This document shows, piece by piece, positions 11,817 to 27,226 of a DNA stretch of 64,000 nucleotides. Location: assembly GCA_025463925.1 (NCBI GenBank), contig JAODBK010000014.1, positions 1 to 64,000 on the forward strand, read 5' to 3'. The notes beneath the pieces were generated by a model that searched no databases, was not told the origin of the DNA, and worked only from the letters and a program-made list of their open reading frames with translations. The stretch is from Acidimicrobiales bacterium (lineage in GTDB: Bacteria; Actinomycetota; Acidimicrobiia; Acidimicrobiales; AC-14). How positions within the stretch are numbered: position 1 is the stretch's first letter; every line of letters starts with the position of its first letter. The position numbers were made by a program, and so were the translations under genes.

Positions 11817-12776
11817 GTGGGCATTCAGGGGGACGTCCGGCTCGAGATCTTCCGGAAGGCGCTGTTGGCCAGGCGCTTCGAGGAACGGGTGGCGCATCTG
11901 GCGCGCGCCGGCGAGGTCCCGGCGGCGCTCCATCTCGGCGCCGGCCACGAGGTCCTGCAGGTCGCGGCGCTGGCCGCGACCCGCCCGAGTGACCCAGTCC
12001 TGTACGGCCACCGCGGGACCGCGTACTGGATCGCCCGCGGCGTCCCGCTCGAGCGCATCCTGTGTGACATCGCGTACAAGGACGGCGGCACCAACGGCGG
12101 CCGCGGTGGCGTGATGCACGTCATCGACCCCGGGCGGGGCATCCTCGGCGAGAGCGGCACCCTCGGCGGCAACTTCGTGATCGGTGCCGGCGTGGCCTTC
12201 GCCGAGCAACGGTTGGGCACCGGGTCGGTGACCGTCGTCTTCTTCGGCGACGGCACCAGCAACCGCGGGCAGTTCCACGAGGCGGCCAACTTCGCGGCGC
12301 TCAGGCGATTGCCGTTGCTGCTCATCTGCGAGAACAACGGCTGGGGCCTGTCGGTTCCGGTGTCGGCGTCCACGTCGGTGGCGGACATCGCCGACCGGGC
12401 CGCCGGCTACGGGATGCCCGGCGTCGTGGTCGACGGGCGCGAGCCCGACGCCGTCCACGACGCCGTGGGCGCCGCCGCCGAGCGGGCCCGGAGCGGCGAG
12501 GGCCCGACGCTCATCGAGGCCAAGGTCGACCGGCTCGAGGGTCACTGGCTCGGGGACCGCGAGCCGTATCGATCGGCCGACGCCCGGGCGTCGTTGCACG
12601 ATCGTGATCCGCTCGTGCGGCTCGAAGCCGATGTGATCCGCCGGGGCCTGCTCGACCCGAGTGGACGCGACGACCTCGAGAAGGAGCTGACGGCGACGAT
12701 CGACGCCGCGGTCGAGCACATGCGGGCCCAACCGGCCGTCGACCCGACGAACGCCCGCACCGGTGTGTACGCGTGA
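11817..12776 (+). CDS. 2-oxoacid dehydrogenase E1 alpha (TPP-dependent)
   Basis: 319 residues, the short E1 alpha length of acetoin/branched-chain/pyruvate dehydrogenases. The GHRG...YWIARG region and the TPP/Mg motif FFGDGTSNRGQFHEAANFAA are present (GDG...N pattern). It decarboxylates a 2-oxo acid with its E1 beta partner and passes the acyl group to E2 lipoate. GTG 11817 is the first start after the AT-rich promoter; upstream frame is open but covers the divergent gene. Stop and next start overlap by 4 bases. Substrate not determinable. Confidence 0.88.
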   Translation: MGIQGDVRLEIFRKALLARRFEERVAHLARAGEVPAALHLGAGHEVLQVAALAATRPSDPVLYGHRGTAYWIARGVPLERILCDIAYKDGGTNGGRGGVMHVIDPGRGILGESGTLGGNFVIGAGVAFAEQRLGTGSVTVVFFGDGTSNRGQFHEAANFAALRRLPLLLICENNGWGLSVPVSASTSVADIADRAAGYGMPGVVVDGREPDAVHDAVGAAAERARSGEGPTLIEAKVDRLEGHWLGDREPYRSADARASLHDRDPLVRLEADVIRRGLLDPSGRDDLEKELTATIDAAVEHMRAQPAVDPTNARTGVYA

Positions 12777-13744
12777 CGCGCCAGTTGAAGTACGCGCACG
12801 CGATCCGCGAGGCGTTGGCGCTCGAGCTGGCACGTGACGAGCGGGTGATGGTGTTCGGCGAGGACGTCGGTGTGAACGGTGGCGTGTGGGGCGCGCTGCG
12901 CGGCTTGCACGAGGAGTTCGGCGACCGCGTCTTCGACACGCCGATCGCCGAGAACCTCATCGTGGGCATGGCAGTCGGCATGGCGATGCGCGGCCTGCGA
13001 CCCGTCGCCGAGCTCCAGTACAGCGACTTCGTGTTCTGCGCCGGCGACGAGGTGTTCCTGAAGGCGGCGACCTGGCGCTACGCCCACGGGGGCGGCGTCG
13101 ACCTCCCGCTCGTGGTGCGCATGGCCTCCGGCGGCAGCGGCTTCGGTCCGGAACACTCGCAGTGCACCGAGGCGTACCTCATGCACACGCCCGGCATCCG
13201 GGTGGCGGTGCCGTCGACCCCGGCCGACGCCAAGGGGCTGATGACGGCGGCGATCCGATCAGACGATCCGGTGTTCGTGCTCGAGCACAAGCTGCTGTAC
13301 CCGATGACCGGGCCGGTGCCGGAAGGCGAGCACATCGTCGCGTTCGGCCAGGCCGTCGTCCGGCGCACCGGCGACGCGGTGACGATCGTCGCGTGGCAGG
13401 ACATGTTGCGACGATCACTCGCCGCCGCCGAGCGTCTGGCCGCCGACGGCATCGAGGTCGAGGTGCTCGACCCGGTGACGCTCAACCCGTTCGACGTCGA
13501 GTCGCTGGTGCGATCGGTCGAGAAGACGGGCGCGTGCATCGTCGTGGAAGAGGCGCCGTTGACCCTCGGTGTCGGGGCCGAGATCGGCGCGTTGCTGATG
13601 GAGCACGCATTCGGCCACCTCGATCGGCCGCTCGTCCGGTTGGCCATTCCCGACGTCCCCGTGCCCACCGCTCCGCACCTGGTCGACGCGGTCGTCCCGA
13701 GCGTCGACCGCGTCGAGGCCGCGGTCCGCCGGCTGGTGGCCTGA
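12773..13744 (+). CDS. 2-oxoacid dehydrogenase E1 beta
   Basis: 323 residues with the E1 beta Pyr domain (VMVFGEDVGVNGGVWGALRGL, FDTPIAENLIVGMAVGMAM, ELQYSDFVF) and the C-terminal transketolase domain (GDAVTIVAWQDMLRRSLAAA). Forms the alpha2beta2 E1 with the overlapping upstream gene. GTG start inside the E1 alpha stop region shows translational coupling. The family reaction is oxidative decarboxylation of a 2-oxo acid. Confidence 0.9.
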   Translation: MTRQLKYAHAIREALALELARDERVMVFGEDVGVNGGVWGALRGLHEEFGDRVFDTPIAENLIVGMAVGMAMRGLRPVAELQYSDFVFCAGDEVFLKAATWRYAHGGGVDLPLVVRMASGGSGFGPEHSQCTEAYLMHTPGIRVAVPSTPADAKGLMTAAIRSDDPVFVLEHKLLYPMTGPVPEGEHIVAFGQAVVRRTGDAVTIVAWQDMLRRSLAAAERLAADGIEVEVLDPVTLNPFDVESLVRSVEKTGACIVVEEAPLTLGVGAEIGALLMEHAFGHLDRPLVRLAIPDVPVPTAPHLVDAVVPSVDRVEAAVRRLVA

Positions 13745-14823
13745 TGGCGGCCGAGGTGCGGGTCCCGCGCATGGGCCAGTCGGTCAGCGACGTGGTGCTG
13801 GTCGCGTGGTGCGCGCAGCCCGGCTCGGCGGTGCGCGCCGGCGACGTCGTGGCTCGGGTCGAGTCCGACAAGAGTGACATCGACGTCGAAGCTCCGGTCG
13901 ACGGCGTGCTCGGCCCGCACCAGGCAGACGAGGGCGACAGCTGCCCGGTCGGCGCCGTCCTGGTGCGCATCGTCACCGCCGGCGAGGCCGACGGGCCGAC
14001 CGCGCCGGGCATCTCGCCGAAGGCCCGCCGCCGGGCCGGTGAGCTCGGCGTCGACACCAGCGCGCTGCGCGGGAGCGGTCCGGACGGCCTGGTCACAGTC
14101 GCCGACGTCGAGGTGGCGGTGGCGACTGCCGGTGATGGATCGACCTGGCAGGGCCGGCGGGTGGCCTCGCGGCGCACGCTGTCGACGGTCGAGCGGGCGA
14201 CCGCCCGCCGGCTCGCCGAGTCCTGGCGGACGGCGCCGCACTTCGTGCAGATGGTCGACGTCGACCTCACCGAAGCGGCGTCGCTGCGGCAGCAATGGCG
14301 GGAACGGGCCTCGTCGCTGGCCGCGGTGACGTGGACCGACCTCGCCGTGGCGGCCTTGGCGCGCGCGCTGGCCCGACATCCGGAGATGAATGCCGCGTTC
14401 GACGGCGACGCGCTGGTGCTCTTCGACGAGGTCAACGTCGGCGTCGCCGTCGACGGTGTGGCCGGCCTCACGGTGCCGGTCGTAGCGGGCGCCGACCGGT
14501 TGTCACTGGCTGAGCTGTCGGCGGCCATCGCCGCGCTGGCCGACGGTGACGCCGGCGCCCCGGTGGCCAGCACCGCGACGGTGTCGAACCTCGGCGCGCT
14601 CGGCATCCGCGCCGGGACGCCGGTGCTCAACCCGCCGGAGACGGTGCTCTTGTTCGTCGGCGCGGTGGAGGACCGCGTCGTGGCCGTCGGCGGCGCGCCC
14701 GCGGTCCGGACGATGGCGACGTTGTCGTTCGCCTTCGACCACCGAGCGACGTCGGGCGCGGCGGCCGCCCGTTTCGTCGCCACTGTGCGATCGTTGCTCG
14801 AACGCCCGACCCGGAACTTGTAG
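13744..14823 (+). CDS. Dihydrolipoyl acyltransferase (E2) with altered DHRxxDG motif
   Basis: 359 residues. A lipoyl domain (~1-75) has lipoyl-Lys in ESDKSDIDVEAP, a peripheral-subunit-binding domain follows (ISPKARRRAGELGVD...GPDGLVTVADV, ~88-125), and then a catalytic domain of about 220 residues. The family active-site motif DHRxxDG reads DHRATSG, so His is kept but the usual Asp is Ser. ATG overlaps the E1 beta stop. No E3 (lipoamide dehydrogenase) gene is nearby, so a shared E3 is expected. It accepts the acyl group from E1 and forms acyl-CoA. Confidence 0.88.
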   Translation: MAAEVRVPRMGQSVSDVVLVAWCAQPGSAVRAGDVVARVESDKSDIDVEAPVDGVLGPHQADEGDSCPVGAVLVRIVTAGEADGPTAPGISPKARRRAGELGVDTSALRGSGPDGLVTVADVEVAVATAGDGSTWQGRRVASRRTLSTVERATARRLAESWRTAPHFVQMVDVDLTEAASLRQQWRERASSLAAVTWTDLAVAALARALARHPEMNAAFDGDALVLFDEVNVGVAVDGVAGLTVPVVAGADRLSLAELSAAIAALADGDAGAPVASTATVSNLGALGIRAGTPVLNPPETVLLFVGAVEDRVVAVGGAPAVRTMATLSFAFDHRATSGAAAARFVATVRSLLERPTRNL

Positions 14824-14833
14824 GGGGAACGCG

Positions 14834-15982
14834 ATGGCCACCGATGTCCAGGGCACGTGCGACCCGGCGTTCAAGGCGGTACGCGACGGCTTCGCCGCGA
14901 ACTTCGCCGACGGGCTCGAGCTCGGCGCGTCGTTGTCGATCAGCATCGACGGCCGCAACGTCGTCGACCTCTGGGGCGGGTGGGCCGATGGCGCGATGAG
15001 CCGGCGGTGGGAGCGCGACACCCTGGCGTGCGTCTTCTCCTGCACCAAGGGGATCGTCGCCGTCCTCGCGCTCCTCCTCGTGGAGCAGGGCCGGCTCGAC
15101 CTGGACGCGCCGGTCGCGGCGTACTGGCCGGAGTTCGCCCAGGCCGGCAAGTCCCACCTGCCGGTGCGTCACCTCCTGACCCACGAGGCCGGATTGCCGG
15201 CGCTGTCGCGCCAAATGCCGTTCGGGTCGTTGAGCGATTGGGACGCGATGGTCACGGCCCTCGCCGAGCAGGAGCCGTGGTGGGAACCGGGGTCCGGTCA
15301 CGGGTACCACGGCGTGACGTACGGGCACCTGGTCGGGGAGGTCATCCGCCGGGTGACCGGTTCGACCGTGCGCGTCGCGCTCGACGAGGCGATCGCCCGG
15401 CCGATGGACGTCGACCTGATGCTCGGGCTGCCGGCCGAGGAGGAGGCCCGCACCGCCGAGATGGTCCTTGGGCCGATGGGCGGCCCGACGTTCTTCGACC
15501 ATTGGCAGCCCGACGGGCTCGGGCCCAAGTCCTTCCGCAACCCGCCGGACTGCAGCGACGTGGGCTACACCAACACCCGCCCGTTCCGCGCCGCCGAGAT
15601 CCCGGCGGCCAACGGGTTCGGCACCGCCCGCGCCCTCGACCGCATGTACGCGATGTTGGCCGGCCGGGGCACGCTCGACGGCGTCCGCCACCTCAGCGCC
15701 GGCCTCGTCGCCGAGGGCGGCCGCGAGCACGTGCGCGGCCAGGACCTCGTGATGGATCTGCCGACGGCGTTCGGCCTCGGCTTCGAGCGCACCATCCCGG
15801 AGTGGCGGTTCGGACCGAACGCGAACACCTACGGCCACAACGGATCGGGCGGATCGCTCGGGGTCGTCGACCCGGATGCGCGCGTCAGCCTCGGCTACGT
15901 GATGAACCGCATGGTGTGGGGGCCGACGCGCGACGACCCCCGGTGGCCGGCGATCTTCGACGCGCTCTACGGGGCGATCTGA
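14834..15982 (+). CDS. Beta-lactamase-fold serine hydrolase/esterase (EstB-like)
   Basis: 382 residues; ATG 14834 has GGGGGA 6 bases upstream. The nucleophile motif SxxK is in FSCTKGIVA (~residue 60), the region HLLTHEAGLPAL is typical of this family, GYHGVTYGH occupies the Tyr motif position, and GHNGSGGSLG is the third motif. The class-C beta-lactamase-like family includes EstB esterases, transesterases and lactone hydrolases. No signal peptide, so it is cytoplasmic. In this operon an ester or lactone cleavage after a Baeyer-Villiger step would fit (inference). Confidence 0.85.
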   Translation: MATDVQGTCDPAFKAVRDGFAANFADGLELGASLSISIDGRNVVDLWGGWADGAMSRRWERDTLACVFSCTKGIVAVLALLLVEQGRLDLDAPVAAYWPEFAQAGKSHLPVRHLLTHEAGLPALSRQMPFGSLSDWDAMVTALAEQEPWWEPGSGHGYHGVTYGHLVGEVIRRVTGSTVRVALDEAIARPMDVDLMLGLPAEEEARTAEMVLGPMGGPTFFDHWQPDGLGPKSFRNPPDCSDVGYTNTRPFRAAEIPAANGFGTARALDRMYAMLAGRGTLDGVRHLSAGLVAEGGREHVRGQDLVMDLPTAFGLGFERTIPEWRFGPNANTYGHNGSGGSLGVVDPDARVSLGYVMNRMVWGPTRDDPRWPAIFDALYGAI

Positions 15983-15987
15983 TCCTG

Positions 15988-16752
15988 ATGCCCGGGCCCG
16001 ACTTCGACCGGTACTCGACGGCGTACCGGCACGTCGCCATGACGCGCCGAGACGGCATCATCGAGCTCCGGCTGCACACCGGCGACGGGCCGCTCGTGTG
16101 GGGGGACGGTCCGCACAGCGAGCTCGGTCACTGCTTCGCCGACGTGGGCGCCGATCCGGAGAACCGCGTCGTGATCATCACCGGCACCGGGGACGAGTTC
16201 ATCGGCCGGCTCGACGACAGCTGGGTCGGCGAGATGACGCCGGCGCTCTGGAACCGCATCTATTCGAACGGCAAGCGGCTGCTGCAGCGGTTGCTCGACA
16301 TCGAGGTGCCGGTGATCGCGGCCGTCAACGGGCGGGCGTCGGTGCATGCCGAGCTGGCGGTGCTGGCCGACATCGTGCTGGCCGCCGACGACGCGTGGTT
16401 CGCCGACGCGCCGCACTTCCGGTTCGGCACGGTGCCGGGCGACGGCGTGCACCAGGTGTGGCCGCTCCTCCTCGGGCCCAACCGCGGCCGCTACTTCCTC
16501 CTCACCGGCCAGCGCCTCTCGGCGGCGGAAGCGCACGCGCTCGGTGTCGTCGCCGAGGTGCTGCCGCGCGATCAGTTGTCCGACCGGGCGTGGGAGCTGG
16601 CGGCGCAGCTCGGCCAGCAGCCCGACACCACCCTGCGCTACACGCGGGTCGCGCTGACCGAGCACCTCCGCAACCAGCTCCTGGGTCAGCTCAGCCACGG
16701 CCTCGCCCTGGAGGGCCTCGGGGCCCACGCCGCCTGGCCGGGTGGTGACTGA
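15988..16752 (+). CDS. 6-oxocamphor-hydrolase-like crotonase (beta-diketone hydrolase)
   Basis: 254 residues of the crotonase fold, strikingly like 6-oxocamphor hydrolase of Rhodococcus: IEVPVIAAVNG, PHFRFGTVPGDG and GRYFLLTGQ occur in the same order. From memory that enzyme uses His45, His122, His145, Asp154 and Glu244; here His43, His120, His143, Asp152 and Glu242 fall at a constant offset of two. It should therefore cleave a C-C bond in a cyclic 1,3-diketone by a retro-Claisen reaction and not hydrate an enoyl-CoA. It sits 5 bases after the serine hydrolase and is followed by an overlapping acyl-CoA ligase, which could activate the released acid. Confidence 0.82.
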   Translation: MPGPDFDRYSTAYRHVAMTRRDGIIELRLHTGDGPLVWGDGPHSELGHCFADVGADPENRVVIITGTGDEFIGRLDDSWVGEMTPALWNRIYSNGKRLLQRLLDIEVPVIAAVNGRASVHAELAVLADIVLAADDAWFADAPHFRFGTVPGDGVHQVWPLLLGPNRGRYFLLTGQRLSAAEAHALGVVAEVLPRDQLSDRAWELAAQLGQQPDTTLRYTRVALTEHLRNQLLGQLSHGLALEGLGAHAAWPGGD

Positions 16753-16753
16753 G

Positions 16754-18307
16754 ATGGCCCACCTGCGCGATGTCGCGGCGCGCGCCCCCGACCGAGCGGC
16801 GGTCGTGATGGGCGACACCGGGACGGTGGTCACCTACGCCGAGCTCGACCGGGCCAGCAACCGGCTGGCCCACCTCCTTCGCGCTGCCGGGCTGGCGCGC
16901 GGCGACCACTACGCGGTGTTCGCCGAGAACCACCCCAGGTACCTCGAGGTCGTCGCCGCCGGCGACCGCTCGGGCCTGTACTGCACGCCGATCAACTCGC
17001 ACCTGACCGCCGACGAGCTGGCGTACATCCTCACCGACTCCGGGGCGCGCGTCCTGGTGACGACGGAGGCGCGCCAGCCGGTCGCCGCGGCGGCGGTGGC
17101 GCGCTGCCCGTCGGTGGAGCGGGTCCTCGTGCTCGACCCCGACGGCGGGACGGCCGACGTCCTCGACGGCTTCGAGCGTTACGCCGACGCGGTGGCGCGG
17201 CAGCCGTCGACGCCGCTCGCCGACGAGTCGCTCGGCGTGACGATGGTGTACAGCTCCGGCACCACCGGTCAGCCGAAGGGCGTCAAGCGGCCACTGCCGC
17301 AGCTGCCGTTCGACGCCGACTTGCCGATGGAGTCGACGTTCCGCGACCTGTACGGCTGCCGCGACGGCGATGTGTATCTGTCGCCGGCGCCGCTGTACCA
17401 CACCGCCCCGCTGGGCTTCTGCATGATCCTGCTGCGGCTCGGCGCGACGATCGTCGTGATGGAGCGTTTCGACGCCGCCGCGGCGCTCCGCCTGATCGAG
17501 CAGCACCGGGTGACGTTCGCCCAGTGGGTGCCCACGCACTTCGTGCGAATGCTGAAGCTGCCCGACCACGATCGCGCCGCGGCCGACGTGTCGAGCCTGC
17601 GCGCCGTGGTGCACGCCGCCGCGCCGTGCCCGGTGGAGGTGAAGGAGCGGATCATCGACTGGTGGGGGCCGATCGTGTGCGAGTACTACGGCGGCAGCGA
17701 GGCCAACGGCATCACCTTCATCACCGCCGAGGAGTGGCTGGCGCACAAGGGTTCCGTCGGGCGCGGGATCCTCGGGCGTCCGGTCATCCTCGACGACGAC
17801 GGGCGGGAGCTGCCGACCGGCGAGATCGGCAACGTGTACTTCGCCGACGGCGCCGCGTTCGCCTATCACAACGACGACGCCAAAACCGCCGGCGCCAAGC
17901 ACGCGAGCGGCGCGACCACCATCGGCGACGTCGGGTACGTCGACGACGACGGGTACCTCTACCTCACCGACCGCAAGGCGTACACGATCATCTCGGGCGG
18001 CGTGAACGTCTACCCGCAGGAAGCCGAGGATGTGCTGGTGCTGCACCCGGCGGTGACCGACGTGGCGGTCTTCGGCGTGCCCGATCCCGAGATGGGGGAG
18101 CAGGTGAAGGCGGTGGTGCAGCCGGCGGCCGGCGCGGTTGCCGGGCCGGACCTCGAACGCGAGCTGATCGCGTTCTGCCGTGAGCGGCTCGCGCACTACA
18201 AGTGCCCGGTCAGCTGCGACTTCCTGGACCAACTCCCGCGCCTCGACACCGGGAAGCTCTACAAGCGGGCGCTCCGCGACCGCTACTGGCAGGAGGTGCT
18301 GTCGTGA
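16754..18307 (+). CDS. Acyl-CoA ligase (ANL superfamily)
   Basis: 517 residues from ATG 16754; in-frame GTGs at 16742 and 16745 overlap the crotonase end and are alternatives. AMP-binding P-loop VYSSGTTGQPKGVK, A5 motif YYGGSEAN, A8 hinge (DRKAYTIISGGVNVYPQE) and C-terminal catalytic Lys in DTGKLYKRAL are present. It adenylates a carboxylic acid and forms its CoA thioester. Its position directly after the beta-diketone hydrolase fits activation of the ring-opened acid. Confidence 0.86.
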   Translation: MAHLRDVAARAPDRAAVVMGDTGTVVTYAELDRASNRLAHLLRAAGLARGDHYAVFAENHPRYLEVVAAGDRSGLYCTPINSHLTADELAYILTDSGARVLVTTEARQPVAAAAVARCPSVERVLVLDPDGGTADVLDGFERYADAVARQPSTPLADESLGVTMVYSSGTTGQPKGVKRPLPQLPFDADLPMESTFRDLYGCRDGDVYLSPAPLYHTAPLGFCMILLRLGATIVVMERFDAAAALRLIEQHRVTFAQWVPTHFVRMLKLPDHDRAAADVSSLRAVVHAAAPCPVEVKERIIDWWGPIVCEYYGGSEANGITFITAEEWLAHKGSVGRGILGRPVILDDDGRELPTGEIGNVYFADGAAFAYHNDDAKTAGAKHASGATTIGDVGYVDDDGYLYLTDRKAYTIISGGVNVYPQEAEDVLVLHPAVTDVAVFGVPDPEMGEQVKAVVQPAAGAVAGPDLERELIAFCRERLAHYKCPVSCDFLDQLPRLDTGKLYKRALRDRYWQEVLS

Positions 18308-19488
18308 CGCCCTACTTGTTGGTCGACGCCGACAACCACTACTACGAGCCTCGCGACGCCTTCACCCGCCACATGCCGGCGCGGCACGCGAGCCTGGCGG
18401 TGCGGGTGGAGGGCGAGAAGGTGTTCGTCGGCGACCGGCCGTTCACGTTCCTGCGCCAGAACTACGACCGGGTGGTGCGGCCGGGCGCGTTGCGCGAGCT
18501 GCTGCGGACGTTGAAGTCCGGCGGCGTCGGTGCCGGCGGCGGCAGCGTCGAGGAGGCGGTGCAGCCGGCATACATCGACCGCGACGCGCGCCTGGCGCTG
18601 ATGGACGAGCAGGGCGTCGAGAAGGTCCTGCTGTTCCCGACGCTGGCAGTGTGCGTCGAACACTTCATGCAGGACGATCCGGTGCAGCTGTACGCCAACT
18701 TCGAGGCGTTCAACCGGTGGCTGGAGGACGACTGGGGCTACGGGTGGCGCGACCGCATCTACGCCGCGCCGCTGGTCTCGCTGCGCGACCTCGATCGCGC
18801 CGTGGCCGAGCTCGACCGCGTGCTGGCCCTCGGTGCGCGGGTGATCGCGCTCCGGCCCGGCCCGGCGTACGGCGCGTCACCCGCCGACCCGCGCTTCGAC
18901 CCGTTCTGGGCGCGCGTCGACGAGGCCGGCGTGCTGGTCGGCCTGCACATCGGCGAGTCCGGGTACAACGAGCGCTTCTCGACCGCGTGGGGCGAGGACG
19001 CCAACCCGCCGTCGCACGAGCAATCGGCGTTCCAGTGGAGCTGCTTCTACGGCGACCGGCCGATCATGGACACCGTCGCCGCGCTCGTCCTGCACAACCT
19101 GTTCGGTCGGTTCCCGAACGTGCGGGTGGCGTCGGTCGAGAACGGCTCGCTGTGGGTGGCGTACCTGCTGGCGGTGCTCGACAAGATGAAGGGCATGGGC
19201 CGCAACGGGCCGTGGCTCGGCGGGAAGGTCGACGGCCGGCCGAGCGAGATCATCAAGCGCCACGTCTTCGTGTCGCCGTATCACGAGGAGGACATCCCGG
19301 CGCTCGTCCGGACCTTGGGCGAGTCGCAGGTGCTCTTCGGCTCCGACTTCCCGCACCCCGAGGGACTGGCCGAACCGGCGGACTACCTCGCCGGCTTGCC
19401 CGGTCTCGACGACCGCCAGGTGCGGATGGTCATGCGCGACAACACGCTCGGGCTGCTGGGCCCGGCGTCACTGGGAGGATCCACGTGA
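18304..19488 (+). CDS. Amidohydrolase-2 family hydrolase/decarboxylase
   Basis: 394 residues, GTG overlapping the ligase stop. The N-terminal LLVDADNHYYEPRDAF has D-x-D-x-H in place of the classical HxH. GLHIGESGYNERF supplies mid-barrel His and LFGSDFPHPEG the C-terminal Asp/His. Same family as the protein at 4742-5917 but not a close copy. Likely a metal-dependent C-C hydrolase or decarboxylase of the pathway; its substrate is not readable. The gene is tightly coupled to both neighbours. Confidence 0.8.
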   Translation: MTPYLLVDADNHYYEPRDAFTRHMPARHASLAVRVEGEKVFVGDRPFTFLRQNYDRVVRPGALRELLRTLKSGGVGAGGGSVEEAVQPAYIDRDARLALMDEQGVEKVLLFPTLAVCVEHFMQDDPVQLYANFEAFNRWLEDDWGYGWRDRIYAAPLVSLRDLDRAVAELDRVLALGARVIALRPGPAYGASPADPRFDPFWARVDEAGVLVGLHIGESGYNERFSTAWGEDANPPSHEQSAFQWSCFYGDRPIMDTVAALVLHNLFGRFPNVRVASVENGSLWVAYLLAVLDKMKGMGRNGPWLGGKVDGRPSEIIKRHVFVSPYHEEDIPALVRTLGESQVLFGSDFPHPEGLAEPADYLAGLPGLDDRQVRMVMRDNTLGLLGPASLGGST

Positions 19489-20414
19489 AGCTGTCCGTCC
19501 TGTTCCCCGAGACCCGCGACGTCGGTCGGGTCACCGAGTTGGCCCAGCAGTCCGAGGACCTCGGCTTCCACGGCATGTTCCTCGGCTCGGCGTTCGGGTT
19601 CGACCCGGTGATGGCGCTGGCCATCGCCGGCACTCGCACCGAGCGGATCCTGCTCGGCACCGCCGTGGTGCCGACCTGGCCGCGCCACCCGATCGTCATG
19701 GCGCAGCAGGCGGCCACCGCCAACGCCGCCGCCGGCGGACGGTTCCGGTTGGGTGTCGGCCCGAGCCACGTGCCGGTGATGGGCATGTACGGGATCCCGT
19801 TCGACAAGCCGATCCGGCATCTCACCGAGTACCTCACCGTCCTGCGGGCGCTCCTCGACGACGGCCGGGTGAAGTTCGCGGGTGCGCAGTACCAGGTGAC
19901 TGCGTTCCTCGACGTCGAGGGTGGCGGCCGGCCGCCGGTCATGCTGTCGGCGCTGCACGAGCAGATGAGCCGGCTGGCCGGCCGGTTGGCCGACGGCGTG
20001 CTGCCGTGGTTGGCGCCGCTCTCGTGGGTCGCCGACGTGATCATCCCCAACGTGCGGGCCGGCGCCGCCGAGGCCGGCCGGCCGGCGCCGCCGGTGATCG
20101 CCGAGCTTCCGTGCATCCTGTCGACGGACCGCGATCACGTCCGCGAGGTCGCCCAGCGCGACCTCGCGATCTACCCGCGCGCCGCCTTCTACGCCGACGT
20201 CCTGGCGAAGGCAGGCATTCCCGGCGCCGACGTGTGCCAGACCGAGGGGTGGTCGGACGCCATGATCGACGCCGTCGTCCCGTGGGGCGATGGCGACGCG
20301 CTGGCGGCGCGGGTGCAGGCGTACCTCGACGCCGGATGCGACGAAGTGGTGCTGTCCCCGTACGGCGGCGGCGAGAAGACCTTGGAGGTGCTCGGTGACA
20401 TCGCCCGAAGCTGA
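19485..20414 (+). CDS. LLM-class (F420-type) oxidoreductase
   Basis: 309 residues with the luciferase-like TIM barrel: KLSVLFPETRDVGRV, the typical LGTAVVPTWPRHPIVMAQQAAT run, and RFRLGVGPSHVPVM. The group includes F420-dependent dehydrogenases/reductases and FMN monooxygenases such as type II Baeyer-Villiger enzymes; sequence alone does not decide. GTG 19485 has GGAGGA 6 bases ahead and overlaps the amidohydrolase stop. In this operon a ring-oxygenating or ketone-reducing step is plausible. Confidence 0.83.
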   Translation: MKLSVLFPETRDVGRVTELAQQSEDLGFHGMFLGSAFGFDPVMALAIAGTRTERILLGTAVVPTWPRHPIVMAQQAATANAAAGGRFRLGVGPSHVPVMGMYGIPFDKPIRHLTEYLTVLRALLDDGRVKFAGAQYQVTAFLDVEGGGRPPVMLSALHEQMSRLAGRLADGVLPWLAPLSWVADVIIPNVRAGAAEAGRPAPPVIAELPCILSTDRDHVREVAQRDLAIYPRAAFYADVLAKAGIPGADVCQTEGWSDAMIDAVVPWGDGDALAARVQAYLDAGCDEVVLSPYGGGEKTLEVLGDIARS

Positions 20415-20817
20415 CGTGCGCCAGCGCAACGAGGAGCAGGTGCGGCAGGTCATCGCGCTGATCTCTGCCGGGAGGTACGACGACATCCTGGAGCTGCTCC
20501 ACGACGATCTCGTGTTCGAGCTGCCTTACGGCCCGGCCGGATACCCGCCGTCGTTCGACAAGCCGACGTTCACGCAGATGCAGCGGGCCACGTTCGCACT
20601 GTTCAGCTCGTTCCACCTCGAGCTGGTCGACGTGCACCACCTCGCCGACCCCGACGGGCTCGTCGCCGAGTACCGGAGCGACTGCGTGGTCAAGGCGTCC
20701 GGCGGCCCGTACCGCAACCGGTACATCGGCGTGTTCGGCTTCCGGGACGGGAAGATCGCTGCCTGGCGCGAGTACCACAACCCGGAGATCTCGAACGCCG
20801 CGCTGCGGCCGGGCTGA
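20395..20817 (+). CDS. SnoaL-like protein
   Basis: 140 residues from GTG 20395, overlapping the LLM gene by 20 bases. NTF2-like fold: NEEQVRQVIALISAGRYDDI helix, LLHDDLVFELPYG, then VFGFRDGKIAAWREYHNPE. Related proteins act as ketosteroid isomerases, limonene-epoxide-hydrolase-like enzymes or cyclases. Last gene of the 11817-20817 operon; converges on the GntR gene with 1 base between stops. Isomerase or epoxide hydrolase of the pathway is an inference. Confidence 0.78.
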   Translation: MTSPEADVRQRNEEQVRQVIALISAGRYDDILELLHDDLVFELPYGPAGYPPSFDKPTFTQMQRATFALFSSFHLELVDVHHLADPDGLVAEYRSDCVVKASGGPYRNRYIGVFGFRDGKIAAWREYHNPEISNAALRPG

Positions 20818-20818
20818 G

Positions 20819-21580
20819 CTATTGCAGGAGGTCGAGCACCGTGCGAGCGCCGTGGCGCGACAGCGTGTACCGGGCCGACTCCTCCATCTGCTCCCGCCAG
20901 AAGCGCTCGGCGCCGTCGCTGTCGCGGGCGTCGATCAACGCGACCAGCCGTTCCGTCGCCTCGCACACGTGCTCGGCCTCGCGGGTGTGCGGCCGGACCT
21001 CCCAGTCGCGCACGACGGACTCGAGGTGCAGCTCGACGATGTCGGTGAGCATGCGGGCCAGGCCGGCGACGGCGCGGTTGCCGGCCAGCTCGAGCACCAG
21101 CAGGTTGAAGCTGGCGGCGGCCGCGAGGAACTCCGCCGGCTGGTCGACCAGCTCCCGCAGGCCGGCCACCGCGGCGCGCAGGTCGCGCAGATCGCTCTTG
21201 GTGCGGCGCTCGGCCAGCAGGCGCGCCGCGGCCGAGAACAGGCACGCGCGCGCCTCGTAGACCTCGGCCAACGTGGTGCCGGCGACCTGGAGCACCAGCC
21301 CGGTGTGCCGGGACGCCACCTCGCGACTGGGCAGGTGCACCCGCGCGCCCGACCGCACGCCGCGGCCGATGCTGATCAACGACTCCGACTCCAGGATCCG
21401 GAGCGCTTCTCGCACGGTCGGCCGCGAGATCGAGAACTGCTCGGACAGCTCGGCTTCCGGCGGGAGGGCGTCGCCCTCCCGCAGCTCACCGCGCACGATC
21501 CGGTCGCGGACGGCGGCCGCGACGAGCACCGCGGTCTTCGCCGGCCGGACGTGCCGGGCCGAGCTGGCAAAGCTGGTCAC
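20819..21580 (-). CDS. GntR-family regulator, FadR/FCD subfamily
   Basis: 253 residues. The winged-helix domain at ~15-85 (LPPEAELSEQFSISRPTVREALRILESESL) is followed by an all-helical FCD ligand domain with candidate metal-binding residues (RMLTDIVELHLESV, EHVCEATERLVALI). Such regulators sense organic acids or acyl compounds. GTG start next to the 41-base divergent region shared with the crotonase at 21622, so local and self-regulation are likely. It could also control the convergent operon ending at 20817. Confidence 0.87.
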   Translation of the reverse strand: MTSFASSARHVRPAKTAVLVAAAVRDRIVRGELREGDALPPEAELSEQFSISRPTVREALRILESESLISIGRGVRSGARVHLPSREVASRHTGLVLQVAGTTLAEVYEARACLFSAAARLLAERRTKSDLRDLRAAVAGLRELVDQPAEFLAAAASFNLLVLELAGNRAVAGLARMLTDIVELHLESVVRDWEVRPHTREAEHVCEATERLVALIDARDSDGAERFWREQMEESARYTLSRHGARTVLDLLQ

Positions 21581-25595: not shown

Positions 25596-26024
25596 CTACC
25601 GCGGGCGGAAGAACGGCGCGGTCACCGTCCGTTCGATGCCGGGGAAGGCGAGGTCGCGATACGCGACTTCGAGCGGCTGCTCGAAGGTCAACGCCGAAAG
25701 GTCGCAGTCGACGAGCCGCGTGGCCAACCGCACCGACGGGTCCTCGTCGAGCGCGGCCAGGCCGGTGGCGTAGGGCACCTCGTCGGCGAACTGCTTCAGG
25801 AACGCGTGGCGGACGACCGTCCAGGAGAACAACGTCGCCCGGCCGCTCATCGGCGTCCAGGTGAACGACTCGCCTTTGCACTGCCGGCAGGTCGGTCGGG
25901 GGTACCAGCAGTACGCCGCGCAGGTGTCGCATCGCGGGATCAGCAGCTCGTGGCGGGCGGCGCCGGCCCAGAACTCGCGCGCCGGCTCCCAGTCGGTGTC
26001 GGGCAGGGGGAAGTCGTCGCGCAC
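25596..26024 (-). CDS. DUF35 Zn-ribbon/OB-fold protein (thiolase partner)
   Basis: 142 residues from GTG (complement of 26022-26024), 2 bases after the thiolase stop. An N-terminal helix is followed by the zinc ribbon CDTC...CRQC and an OB-fold (TLFSWTVVRHAF, DEVPYATGLAAL). DUF35 proteins bind thiolase-like partners. In sterol side-chain degradation the Ltp2/ChsH2-DUF35 complex acts as a retro-aldolase. Pairing with the adjacent thiolase is strongly implied by gene order. Confidence 0.85.
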   Translation of the reverse strand: MRDDFPLPDTDWEPAREFWAGAARHELLIPRCDTCAAYCWYPRPTCRQCKGESFTWTPMSGRATLFSWTVVRHAFLKQFADEVPYATGLAALDEDPSVRLATRLVDCDLSALTFEQPLEVAYRDLAFPGIERTVTAPFFRPR

Positions 26025-26026
26025 CT

Positions 26027-27226
26027 TCAACCCTTCCGCAGCACGAGCGTCGAGGCCTGCGGGCCGGTGTACCCGCCGTAGACACCGATCTCGGCGTCGG
26101 GCACCTGGCGATCGCCGCACTCGCCTCGCAGCTGGCGGACGACCTCGACCACGTGCGCGATGCCGAGGACGTAGGCATGGGAGAGGAGGCCGCCGTGGGT
26201 GTTGTACGGCAGCACCCCGGAGTCGAACGCCAGTGAGCCCGCTTCGGCGAACGGGCCGCCGTCGCCCTTCTGGCAGAACCCCATGTCCTCGACCTGCATG
26301 ATCGAATGGATCGTGAACGGGTCGTAGCACGCCAGCACGTCGACATCAGCCGGCGAGATGCCGGCCATCGCGAATCCGCCGGGCGCGGCGAACGCCTGCG
26401 GCGTCGAGCAGAACGCCCCTTGCTGGGCCCAGTACGTCCCGGTGCGCGAGCTGCCGAGCCCGACGCCGGCGACGTCGATCGGCTGGGATCGCAGGTCGCG
26501 CGCCCGATCGGCGCTCGTCATCACGTAGGCGCCGCCGCCGTCGGAGATCAGGCAGCAGTCCTCCTTGCGGAACGGGTCGACGATCGTCGGCGACGCCAGG
26601 TACTGCTCGAGCGAGAGCGGTCGGTCGCGCATGACGGCCGCCGGCGTGAGGTTGGCGTGGCGGCGCAGGGTCACCGCGACCGCGCCGAGCTGCTCCTGCG
26701 TGGTGCCGTACTGGTGCATGTGCCGGCGGGCGATCGTCGCGAAGTACACCGGCTGCGGGAACCAGCCGAACGGGACCTCGAGGTTCTGCTTGGCCAGCTC
26801 CTGCGCGTGCGACTGGCCCGGGCCGCCGACCATGCTGCCGCGCTGGGTCGCCCACGCAACGGCGAACGCGTTGACGATGCACGTCGCCTTGCCGTCGCGC
26901 AACGCCTGCGCGGCCTCGTAGGGCGCGGTGCCGGCCCACACCATGCCGCCGCCGCGGTCGGACTCCCACATCTCGTGCGATGTTCCGAAGTGGTCGCGGA
27001 AGGCGGCGGCGTCGAAGCGATCGGCGAGCATCGGGACGTGCATGATGCCGTCGACGTCGCCCGGCTCGAGCCCGGCGTCGGCGAGGGCCCGCTCGACCGC
27101 CTGGCCGGCGATCTCGGCGGCAGTTCGGCCCGACGCCTTGGTGTGATCGGCCTCGCCGACGCCCGCGATCGCGACCTGGCCGGAGATGTCGTCCAAGTCG
27201 TGGGCGAAGCCCCAATCACTCGTCAT
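26027..27226 (-). CDS. SCPx/Ltp-type thiolase-fold protein
   Basis: 399 residues. Opens with QVAIAGVGEADHTKASGRTA, has CCLISDGGGAYVM in mid-protein and [20 protein letters not shown] near the end, the pattern of lipid-transfer-protein thiolases. The degradative-thiolase nucleophile motif (DCQCGSG type) is absent, as in Ltp2-like proteins that do retro-aldol chemistry. ATG overlaps the CoA-transferase stop by 4 bases. With the DUF35 gene it probably forms an aldolase or thiolase complex on a CoA thioester. Confidence 0.84.
   Translation of the reverse strand: MTSDWGFAHDLDDISGQVAIAGVGEADHTKASGRTAAEIAGQAVERALADAGLEPGDVDGIMHVPMLADRFDAAAFRDHFGTSHEMWESDRGGGMVWAGTAPYEAAQALRDGKATCIVNAFAVAWATQRGSMVGGPGQSHAQELAKQNLEVPFGWFPQPVYFATIARRHMHQYGTTQEQLGAVAVTLRRHANLTPAAVMRDRPLSLEQYLASPTIVDPFRKEDCCLISDGGGAYVMTSADRARDLRSQPIDVAGVGLGSSRTGTYWAQQGAFCSTPQAFAAPGGFAMAGISPADVDVLACYDPFTIHSIMQVEDMGFCQKGDGGPFAEAGSLAFDSGVLPYNTHGGLLSHAYVLGIAHVVEVVRQLRGECGDRQVPDAEIGVYGGYTGPQASTLVLRKG

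Follow-up and report, generated by a model that had tools for sequence, protein, structure and literature searches.

A predicted OCH/ABDH-family beta-diketone hydrolase in an operon with a probable dinuclear-metal hydroxylase in an Acidimicrobiales genome

Introduction

What would a protein resembling 6-oxocamphor hydrolase (OCH) act on in an Acidimicrobiales bacterium, and which of its neighbors could supply the substrate? The question is raised by one gene in a 64,000-nucleotide stretch of contig (hereafter, the window), originally predicted to encode an OCH-like enzyme in a new operon context. In OCH, a His/Asp dyad binds the carboxylate-to-be, water attacks one carbonyl, and Trp40 holds the other; our comparisons assume His45, His122, His145, Asp154 and Glu244, together with Trp40, as the active-site residues, and likewise assume their roles. 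OCH-family enzymes desymmetrize diketones to give enantiopure keto acids, and we know of few native pathways in which they take part. The Rhodococcus camphor route is P450-based and proceeds in the order hydroxylation, oxidation, cleavage. Proteins of family PF04909, one of which is encoded in the same operon, are usually read as hydrolases; to our knowledge, only a handful have been shown to be oxygenases.

The OCH-like protein and its active-site residues

The open reading frame at 15988–16752 has the codon composition of the neighboring genes and is separated from the serine hydrolase gene by 5 bases (Table 1). A phmmer search of its product against PDB sequences recovered the Anabaena beta-diketone hydrolase (ABDH; 2j5g/2j5s, 6.8e-70) and OCH (1o8u, 9e-69; the H122A form 1szo, 2.2e-67), with EchA15 (3qk8, 2e-21) as the first match outside OCH/ABDH; identity is about 49% to OCH and about 49% to ABDH. 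Residues 7–248 of OCH align without gaps with residues 5–246 of the query, and, as originally predicted, all five OCH residues are present at a constant offset, −2 throughout: H45, H122, H145, D154 and E244 correspond to H43, H120, H143, D152 and E242. The counterpart of Trp40 in this alignment is W38. The residue set given for ABDH is D153, H144, E243 and H43 (PMC3584854).

These positions were counted in 28 relatives, comprising 26 genes from 21 genomes, the own-genome paralog and a gene from an alphaproteobacterial MAG (L009); the count leaves out the window gene and its duplicate L001, OCH, ABDH, two outgroup rows, the partial second copy on L009, and L012 (a duplicate of L003). All five catalytic positions are complete in 26 of the 28, the exceptions lying at H43 (Asp in L032, Val in L026). 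H143, D152 and E242 are each present in every relative, and W38 in 24. H120 is found in 28/28 relatives versus 0/8 other distinct crotonases, which have Gly, Phe, Tyr or Met there; it is the discriminating residue, because the other four also occur in EchA15-like crotonases, of which L003 is an instance. Judged from these counts in relatives versus other crotonases, the five-residue match exceeds what chance would give.

Two further observations concern individual loci. L003 (G000:C90:27372–28067), a crotonase, keeps four of the five OCH residues but has Phe at the His122 position; 3q1t, which is similar to it, has been proposed as a beta-diketone hydrolase (PMC3584854). On the L009 contig there are two OCH-family genes, one complete and the other partial (from base 2; 647–1390).

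Table 1. Coordinates of the operon genes and adjacent features in the window.
Feature	Coordinates	Strand	Remarks
2-oxoacid dehydrogenase E1 alpha, first operon gene	11817..12776	+	GTG start; Pfam E1_dh 5.7e-66
2-oxoacid dehydrogenase E1 beta	12773..13744	+	Pfam Transket_pyr, Transketolase_C
2-oxoacid dehydrogenase E2	13744..14823	+	Pfam lipoyl, E3-binding, acyltransferase domains
LipL/EstB-like serine hydrolase, class C beta-lactamase fold	14834..15982	+	Pfam Beta-lactamase 5.9e-68 (longer ORF)
OCH/ABDH-family beta-diketone hydrolase (predicted)	15988..16752	+	ATG start, 254 aa
FadD4-like acyl-CoA ligase	16742..18307	+	Pfam AMP-binding; start possibly 16754
PF04909 protein, predicted dinuclear-metal monooxygenase (ARO)	18304..19488	+	
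F420-dependent LLM oxidoreductase, candidate alcohol dehydrogenase	19485..20414	+	TIGR03564 245.9 bits, above cutoff 234.25
SnoaL_2/NTF2-like protein, last operon gene	20416..20817	+	Pfam SnoaL_2 3.5e-15
GntR/FCD regulator at operon end	20819..21580	-	Pfam
ChsH2-type zinc ribbon/OB-fold protein	25596..26024	-	Pfam OB_ChsH2_C, zf-ChsH2
Thiolase-like protein beside ChsH2-type gene, aldolase-pair candidate	26027..27226	-	Pfam Thiolase_C_1

Predicted fold and phylogenetic placement

The AlphaFold model of the protein (pLDDT 92.4) matches 1szo, 1o8u, 2j5s and 2j5g at Z 38.1–38.5 and rmsd 1.3–1.4; among the matches listed, which for this model and for the PF04909 model below do not in themselves exclude unlisted families, the best crotonase outside OCH/ABDH stands at Z 31.1. 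Superposition on OCH had been suggested as a test of the OCH-like claim, and, performed here as a fold comparison, it did not refute that claim: residues 2–250 of the model fall on residues 4–252 of the 1o8u chain (Z 38.2, rmsd 1.4 over 248 residues), with the −2 offset at both ends. An OCH-like identity, that is, a predicted beta-diketone hydrolase, is borne out by sequence, residues and fold.

In a tree of 33 proteins (the 28 relatives, OCH, ABDH, the window gene and two outgroup rows), the window gene forms one clade with its own-genome paralog (L002) and single genes from genomes G132 (L025) and G669 (L052), with support of 100/99. This four-member clade stands apart from both OCH and ABDH, and the deeper forks are unsure or weakly supported. 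The protein is thus placed in a subfamily of its own, the third within the OCH/ABDH family, and because that subfamily is distinct, "camphor" is not implied by the resemblance. Camphor was accordingly rejected as a named substrate, the protein being equally far from OCH and ABDH and grouping with neither. The original expectation, catabolism of a cyclic diketone, is plausible for a 1,3-diketone, and its more specific candidates (camphor, bornane, hydrindane or a sterol fragment) are not supported for a protein of its own clade at such distances. A role as a steroid C/D-ring hydrolase was considered and not adopted; the nearby ChsH2/thiolase-like pair is no more than suggestive.

The operon and its surroundings

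The gene belongs to a series of nine same-strand genes that begins with the GTG at 11817 and ends at 20817; adjacent genes overlap or lie no more than 10 bases apart (Table 1). All of the partners originally named (a serine hydrolase, an acyl-CoA ligase, an LLM enzyme, a SnoaL-like protein and a 2-oxoacid dehydrogenase) were recovered by Pfam and NCBIfam. The E1 alpha product scores 241 bits with TIGR03182, under its cutoff, and the ligase scores 650.8 bits with NF038341 (FadD4), where the cutoff of 850 was not reached. PDB matches of the LipL/EstB-like protein are the carboxylesterases 7y3z, 5gmx, 8j5v and 5gkv; those of the LLM protein include F420-dependent alcohol and hydroxymycolic acid dehydrogenases; and the weak matches of the SnoaL_2 protein include limonene-1,2-epoxide hydrolases. 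The HRxxDG motif of E2 reads HRATSG in the window and HRVLDG in the G132 relative, and the window E2, from this sequence, may be altered or inactive. A sigma-70 promoter scan found none.

About 5 kb past the operon lie genes for the ChsH2-type and thiolase-like proteins, a CoA-transferase and a second LLM protein. The ChsH2-type/thiolase-like pair at 25596–27226 resembles the retro-aldol side-chain-cleaving pairs of steroid catabolism.

The original list of operon genes did not include the PF04909 gene, and its product is the most informative operon neighbor. Its presence suggests a shift in the picture of the locus, from a hydrolase among CoA enzymes to a hydroxylase plus a hydrolase.

A dinuclear hydroxylase signature in the PF04909 protein

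PF04909 comprises more than 100,000 proteins, many of them mononuclear enzymes, and the amidohydrolase-related dinuclear oxygenases (AROs) were defined in the same work (PMC10811679). AibH2 binds its metals through D25, H27, H211, E265, D337 and H340; two positions past the last His lies an acidic residue that is conserved only in binuclear members (PMC7782822). The window protein has D10, H12, H215, E279, D348 and H351 as ligands and E353 as the acidic residue; the six ligands and the acidic residue are invariant in 15/15 of its close homologs. All seven are kept in 10 of the 14 PF04909 proteins from the OCH loci and the window, and position 353 is Thr or Ala in those of some OCH loci.

The strongest PDB sequence match of the protein is 4dzi (uncharacterized, 1.2e-80), followed by PtmU3 (3.1e-28) and DitZ (1.2e-14), and decarboxylases match at 0.004 or worse. 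PtmU3 is a non-heme diiron monooxygenase, and its substrate is a diterpenoid-CoA (PMC10127204). In the fold comparison of the predicted model (pLDDT 89.8), among the matches listed, 4dzi ranks first and PtmU3 second; ranks 2–13 are occupied by PtmU3, DitZ, SfbO and its relatives, and AibH1H2, all before any decarboxylase. The Z scores, again among the matches listed, are 36.0 for PtmU3, 32.0 for SfbO, 31.0 for AibH1H2 and 29.9 for the best decarboxylase, so that only PtmU3 stands well clear of the decarboxylases. Because of the seven-residue signature and this ranking, the protein is predicted to be a dinuclear hydroxylase, probably an O2-dependent enzyme with two metals (Fe/Fe or Mn/Fe) and not a hydrolase. 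A small Rieske reductase co-occurs with AibH2-like proteins in 90% of cases (PMC10401708); none was found among the nine operon genes with Pfam and NCBIfam. In genome G692, a second, shorter PF04909 gene adjoins that of the predicted hydroxylase (L096, 4712–5575 and 5578–6768), an arrangement comparable to the AibH1/AibH2 pair.

Recurrence and gene contexts in other genomes

In G132, which belongs to the same class and a different order, the genes form two divergent arms. One encodes E1 alpha (64% identity), E1 beta (79%), E2 (42%) and the LipL-like protein (58%); the other encodes an SDR, the PF04909 protein (74%) and the OCH-family protein (73%), with a 4-base overlap between the genes of the last two. 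The SDR gene is directly upstream of the PF04909 gene in G132, and in the window the LLM gene is directly downstream of it. Three small contigs of G692 hold seven of the nine operon genes: E1 alpha, a partial E1 beta (86%), the ligase (70%, cut at a contig end), and the PF04909 (79%), LLM (69%), LipL-like (69%) and SnoaL-like (48%) genes. A 54% ortholog of the GntR/FCD regulator adjoins this cluster, a 54% ortholog of the ChsH2-type gene immediately precedes E1 alpha, and a 70% ortholog of the thiolase-like gene lies on a G692 contig. Neither the OCH gene nor E2 was found in G692. This may reflect true absence or an assembly gap, and a gap is possible because the contigs break off within the E1 beta gene and within the ligase gene. 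Across the 22 genomes tested, close orthologs of E1 beta occur only in the window's own genome (G000), G132 and G692, where the gene is a contig-end fragment.

A close PF04909 ortholog stands beside the OCH gene in only two of the four subclade members (the window and G132). In G775, a PF04909 homolog (49%) and an OCH-family gene (48–49%) are about 5 kb or less apart. The own-genome OCH paralog (74% identity; L011, G000:C63:9001–29000) has CoA-transferase, SDR-fragment, ChsH2-type and thiolase-like genes upstream and an ABC permease downstream, and both PF04909 proteins at that locus have Thr in place of the seventh, acidic residue. Among the six members of the group sister to OCH, the adjoining gene scanned encodes a P450 in L030 (10317–11570) and L065 (8541–9884), a Rieske oxygenase in L028 (10447–11739) and L035 (8184–9488), and an aldehyde dehydrogenase in L029 and L031; an oxygenase thus stands beside the OCH-family gene in four of six. 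An oxygenase gene beside an OCH-family gene is thus a repeated pattern, with P450 and Rieske enzymes in that position elsewhere, and this suggests interchangeable hydroxylases. The operon of the window differs from the P450 and Rieske oxygenase contexts of the other OCH-family genes compared, and its description as a new context stands.

At E ≤ 1e-45, OCH-family matches were obtained from 6 of the 296 genomes sampled for the class, from 7 of 396 for the phylum and from 14 of 298 for the order; the samples overlap, and each count takes in the window's genome. The window's own genome is the only positive among the 10 of its family; the family of G132 is represented by G132 alone. The OCH-family gene is a patchy accessory gene. 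A single-protein search of genome contigs returned two loci, L009 (53%) and L010 (a distant crotonase). In the order sample of 298 genomes, PF04909 matches at E ≤ 1e-70 occur in 7/14 OCH-positive versus 97/284 OCH-negative genomes (p 0.26). At E ≤ 1e-100, a cut chosen after viewing the list, the counts are 5/14 versus 15/284 (p 0.001), or 4/13 OCH-positive (p 0.006) once the window's genome is removed, all p values being uncorrected for relatedness. The link between OCH and PF04909 across the 298 genomes of the order is weak.

Discussion

From the families, catalytic residues, metal-ligand signature, folds, operon layout and partial conservation described above, we infer a set of reactions, their order and a class of substrate. 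The PF04909 two-metal hydroxylase would install an alcohol on the substrate, and a dehydrogenase, either F420-dependent (the LLM protein) or NAD-dependent, would oxidize it to a second ketone; in an arrangement like that of G132, an SDR would take this part. In the OCH-like enzyme, the His/Asp/Glu set would activate water for attack on one carbonyl of the (probably cyclic) 1,3-diketone, and CoA-independent retro-Claisen C–C cleavage would release a keto acid. The acyl-CoA ligase would convert this acid to a CoA thioester, and the serine hydrolase may open a lactone or an ester; oxidative cleavage of a 2-oxo acid arising later in the route may be the task of the dedicated E1/E2 components. By analogy, the proposed order of hydroxylation, oxidation and cleavage mirrors that of the Rhodococcus camphor route. 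We lean modestly toward the central proposal, in which a CoA-independent diketone hydrolase of the OCH/ABDH type is fed by a two-metal hydroxylase and a dehydrogenase from one operon. A P450-free route is offered more tentatively, as a realistic possibility: a cyclic ketone would be hydroxylated by a monooxygenase of amidohydrolase fold (Fe/Fe or Mn/Fe), and LLM/SDR oxidation and OCH-family ring opening would follow.

The same locus could be read differently. The OCH-like protein may be a beta-diketone hydrolase and the PF04909 protein an ordinary mononuclear hydrolase or decarboxylase that carries out a second hydrolytic step or a decarboxylation, the diketone being made elsewhere. Many mononuclear enzymes fall within PF04909 (PMC10811679), decarboxylases come only 1–2 Z units below most oxygenase entries in the fold comparison, the operon has no Rieske partner, position 353 is Thr or Ala in the PF04909 proteins of some OCH neighbors, and a steroid ring-A beta-diketone hydrolase is, by title, on record. 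We nevertheless regard a mononuclear enzyme as unlikely, given that the dinuclear signature is complete in all seven residues and that PtmU3 is clearly the best characterized match in both sequence and fold.

The remaining alternatives concern the OCH-like protein itself. It would be a CoA-dependent ring hydrolase if its substrate were a CoA-bound cyclic 1,3-diketone or beta-keto acid from a steroid or terpenoid side chain or ring; an acyl-CoA ligase within the operon, the nearby CoA-transferase, thiolase-like and ChsH2-type genes, and the diterpenoid-CoA substrate of PtmU3 (PMC10127204) are consistent with this. However, the closest structures include ABDH, called CoA-independent in a reference title (PMC3584854), and at column 120, where the generic crotonases in the alignment have Gly, the protein has His; we consider CoA dependence quite improbable. 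Extremely improbable is an ordinary enoyl-CoA hydratase or isomerase of the crotonase superfamily. The Pfam ECH_1 match (2.3e-32) would fit such an enzyme, but the best enoyl-CoA hydratase match lies about 155 bits below the OCH match, and at the two columns where an enoyl-CoA hydratase would show a catalytic Glu and the oxyanion-hole Gly the protein has neither: the generic Glu of column 143 (L005, L007) and the generic Gly of column 120 (L004, L005, L007, L008, L010) are both His, and a plain enoyl-CoA hydratase was rejected on these grounds.

The proposed coupling of hydroxylase and diketone hydrolase has practical consequences. The gene pair predicts a product class for the hydroxylase (a 1,3-diketone precursor) and a substrate class for the hydrolase, and each member can be used to find the substrate of the other. 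If the P450-free route is correct, it would be the non-heme equivalent of camphor degradation in Rhodococcus, and the 4dzi-like PF04909 subfamily would gain a natural role. In the open-access literature searched, dinuclear PF04909 oxygenases were not found paired with OCH-family enzymes.

Comparison with known systems

The window protein resembles OCH (1o8u, 1szo) in its ungapped alignment at about 49% identity, its five residues and Trp40 counterpart, and its fold (Z 38), but it falls in a separate clade, and its operon has a dinuclear-oxygenase candidate, a 2-oxoacid dehydrogenase and a serine hydrolase in contrast to the P450-based camphor route. With ABDH (2j5g, 2j5s) it likewise has about 49% identity, the five residues and a fold match of Z 38 in common, whereas ABDH has Phe at the Trp40 position and belongs to a different clade. 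EchA15-like crotonases (3q1t, 3qk8) share the H43, H143, D152 and E242 positions; unlike the window protein, the two relatives in the compared set (L003, L036_12904) have Phe or Tyr at the H120 position, and the group stands at 24–27% identity on a separate long branch of the tree. The PF04909 protein at 18304–19488, for its part, shares six ligands, a seventh acidic residue (Glu, as in PtmU3) and a TIM barrel with PtmU3, AibH2 and SfbO. It differs from them in its 19–29% identity, in an operon that has no Rieske partner, and in being encoded alongside an OCH-family hydrolase.
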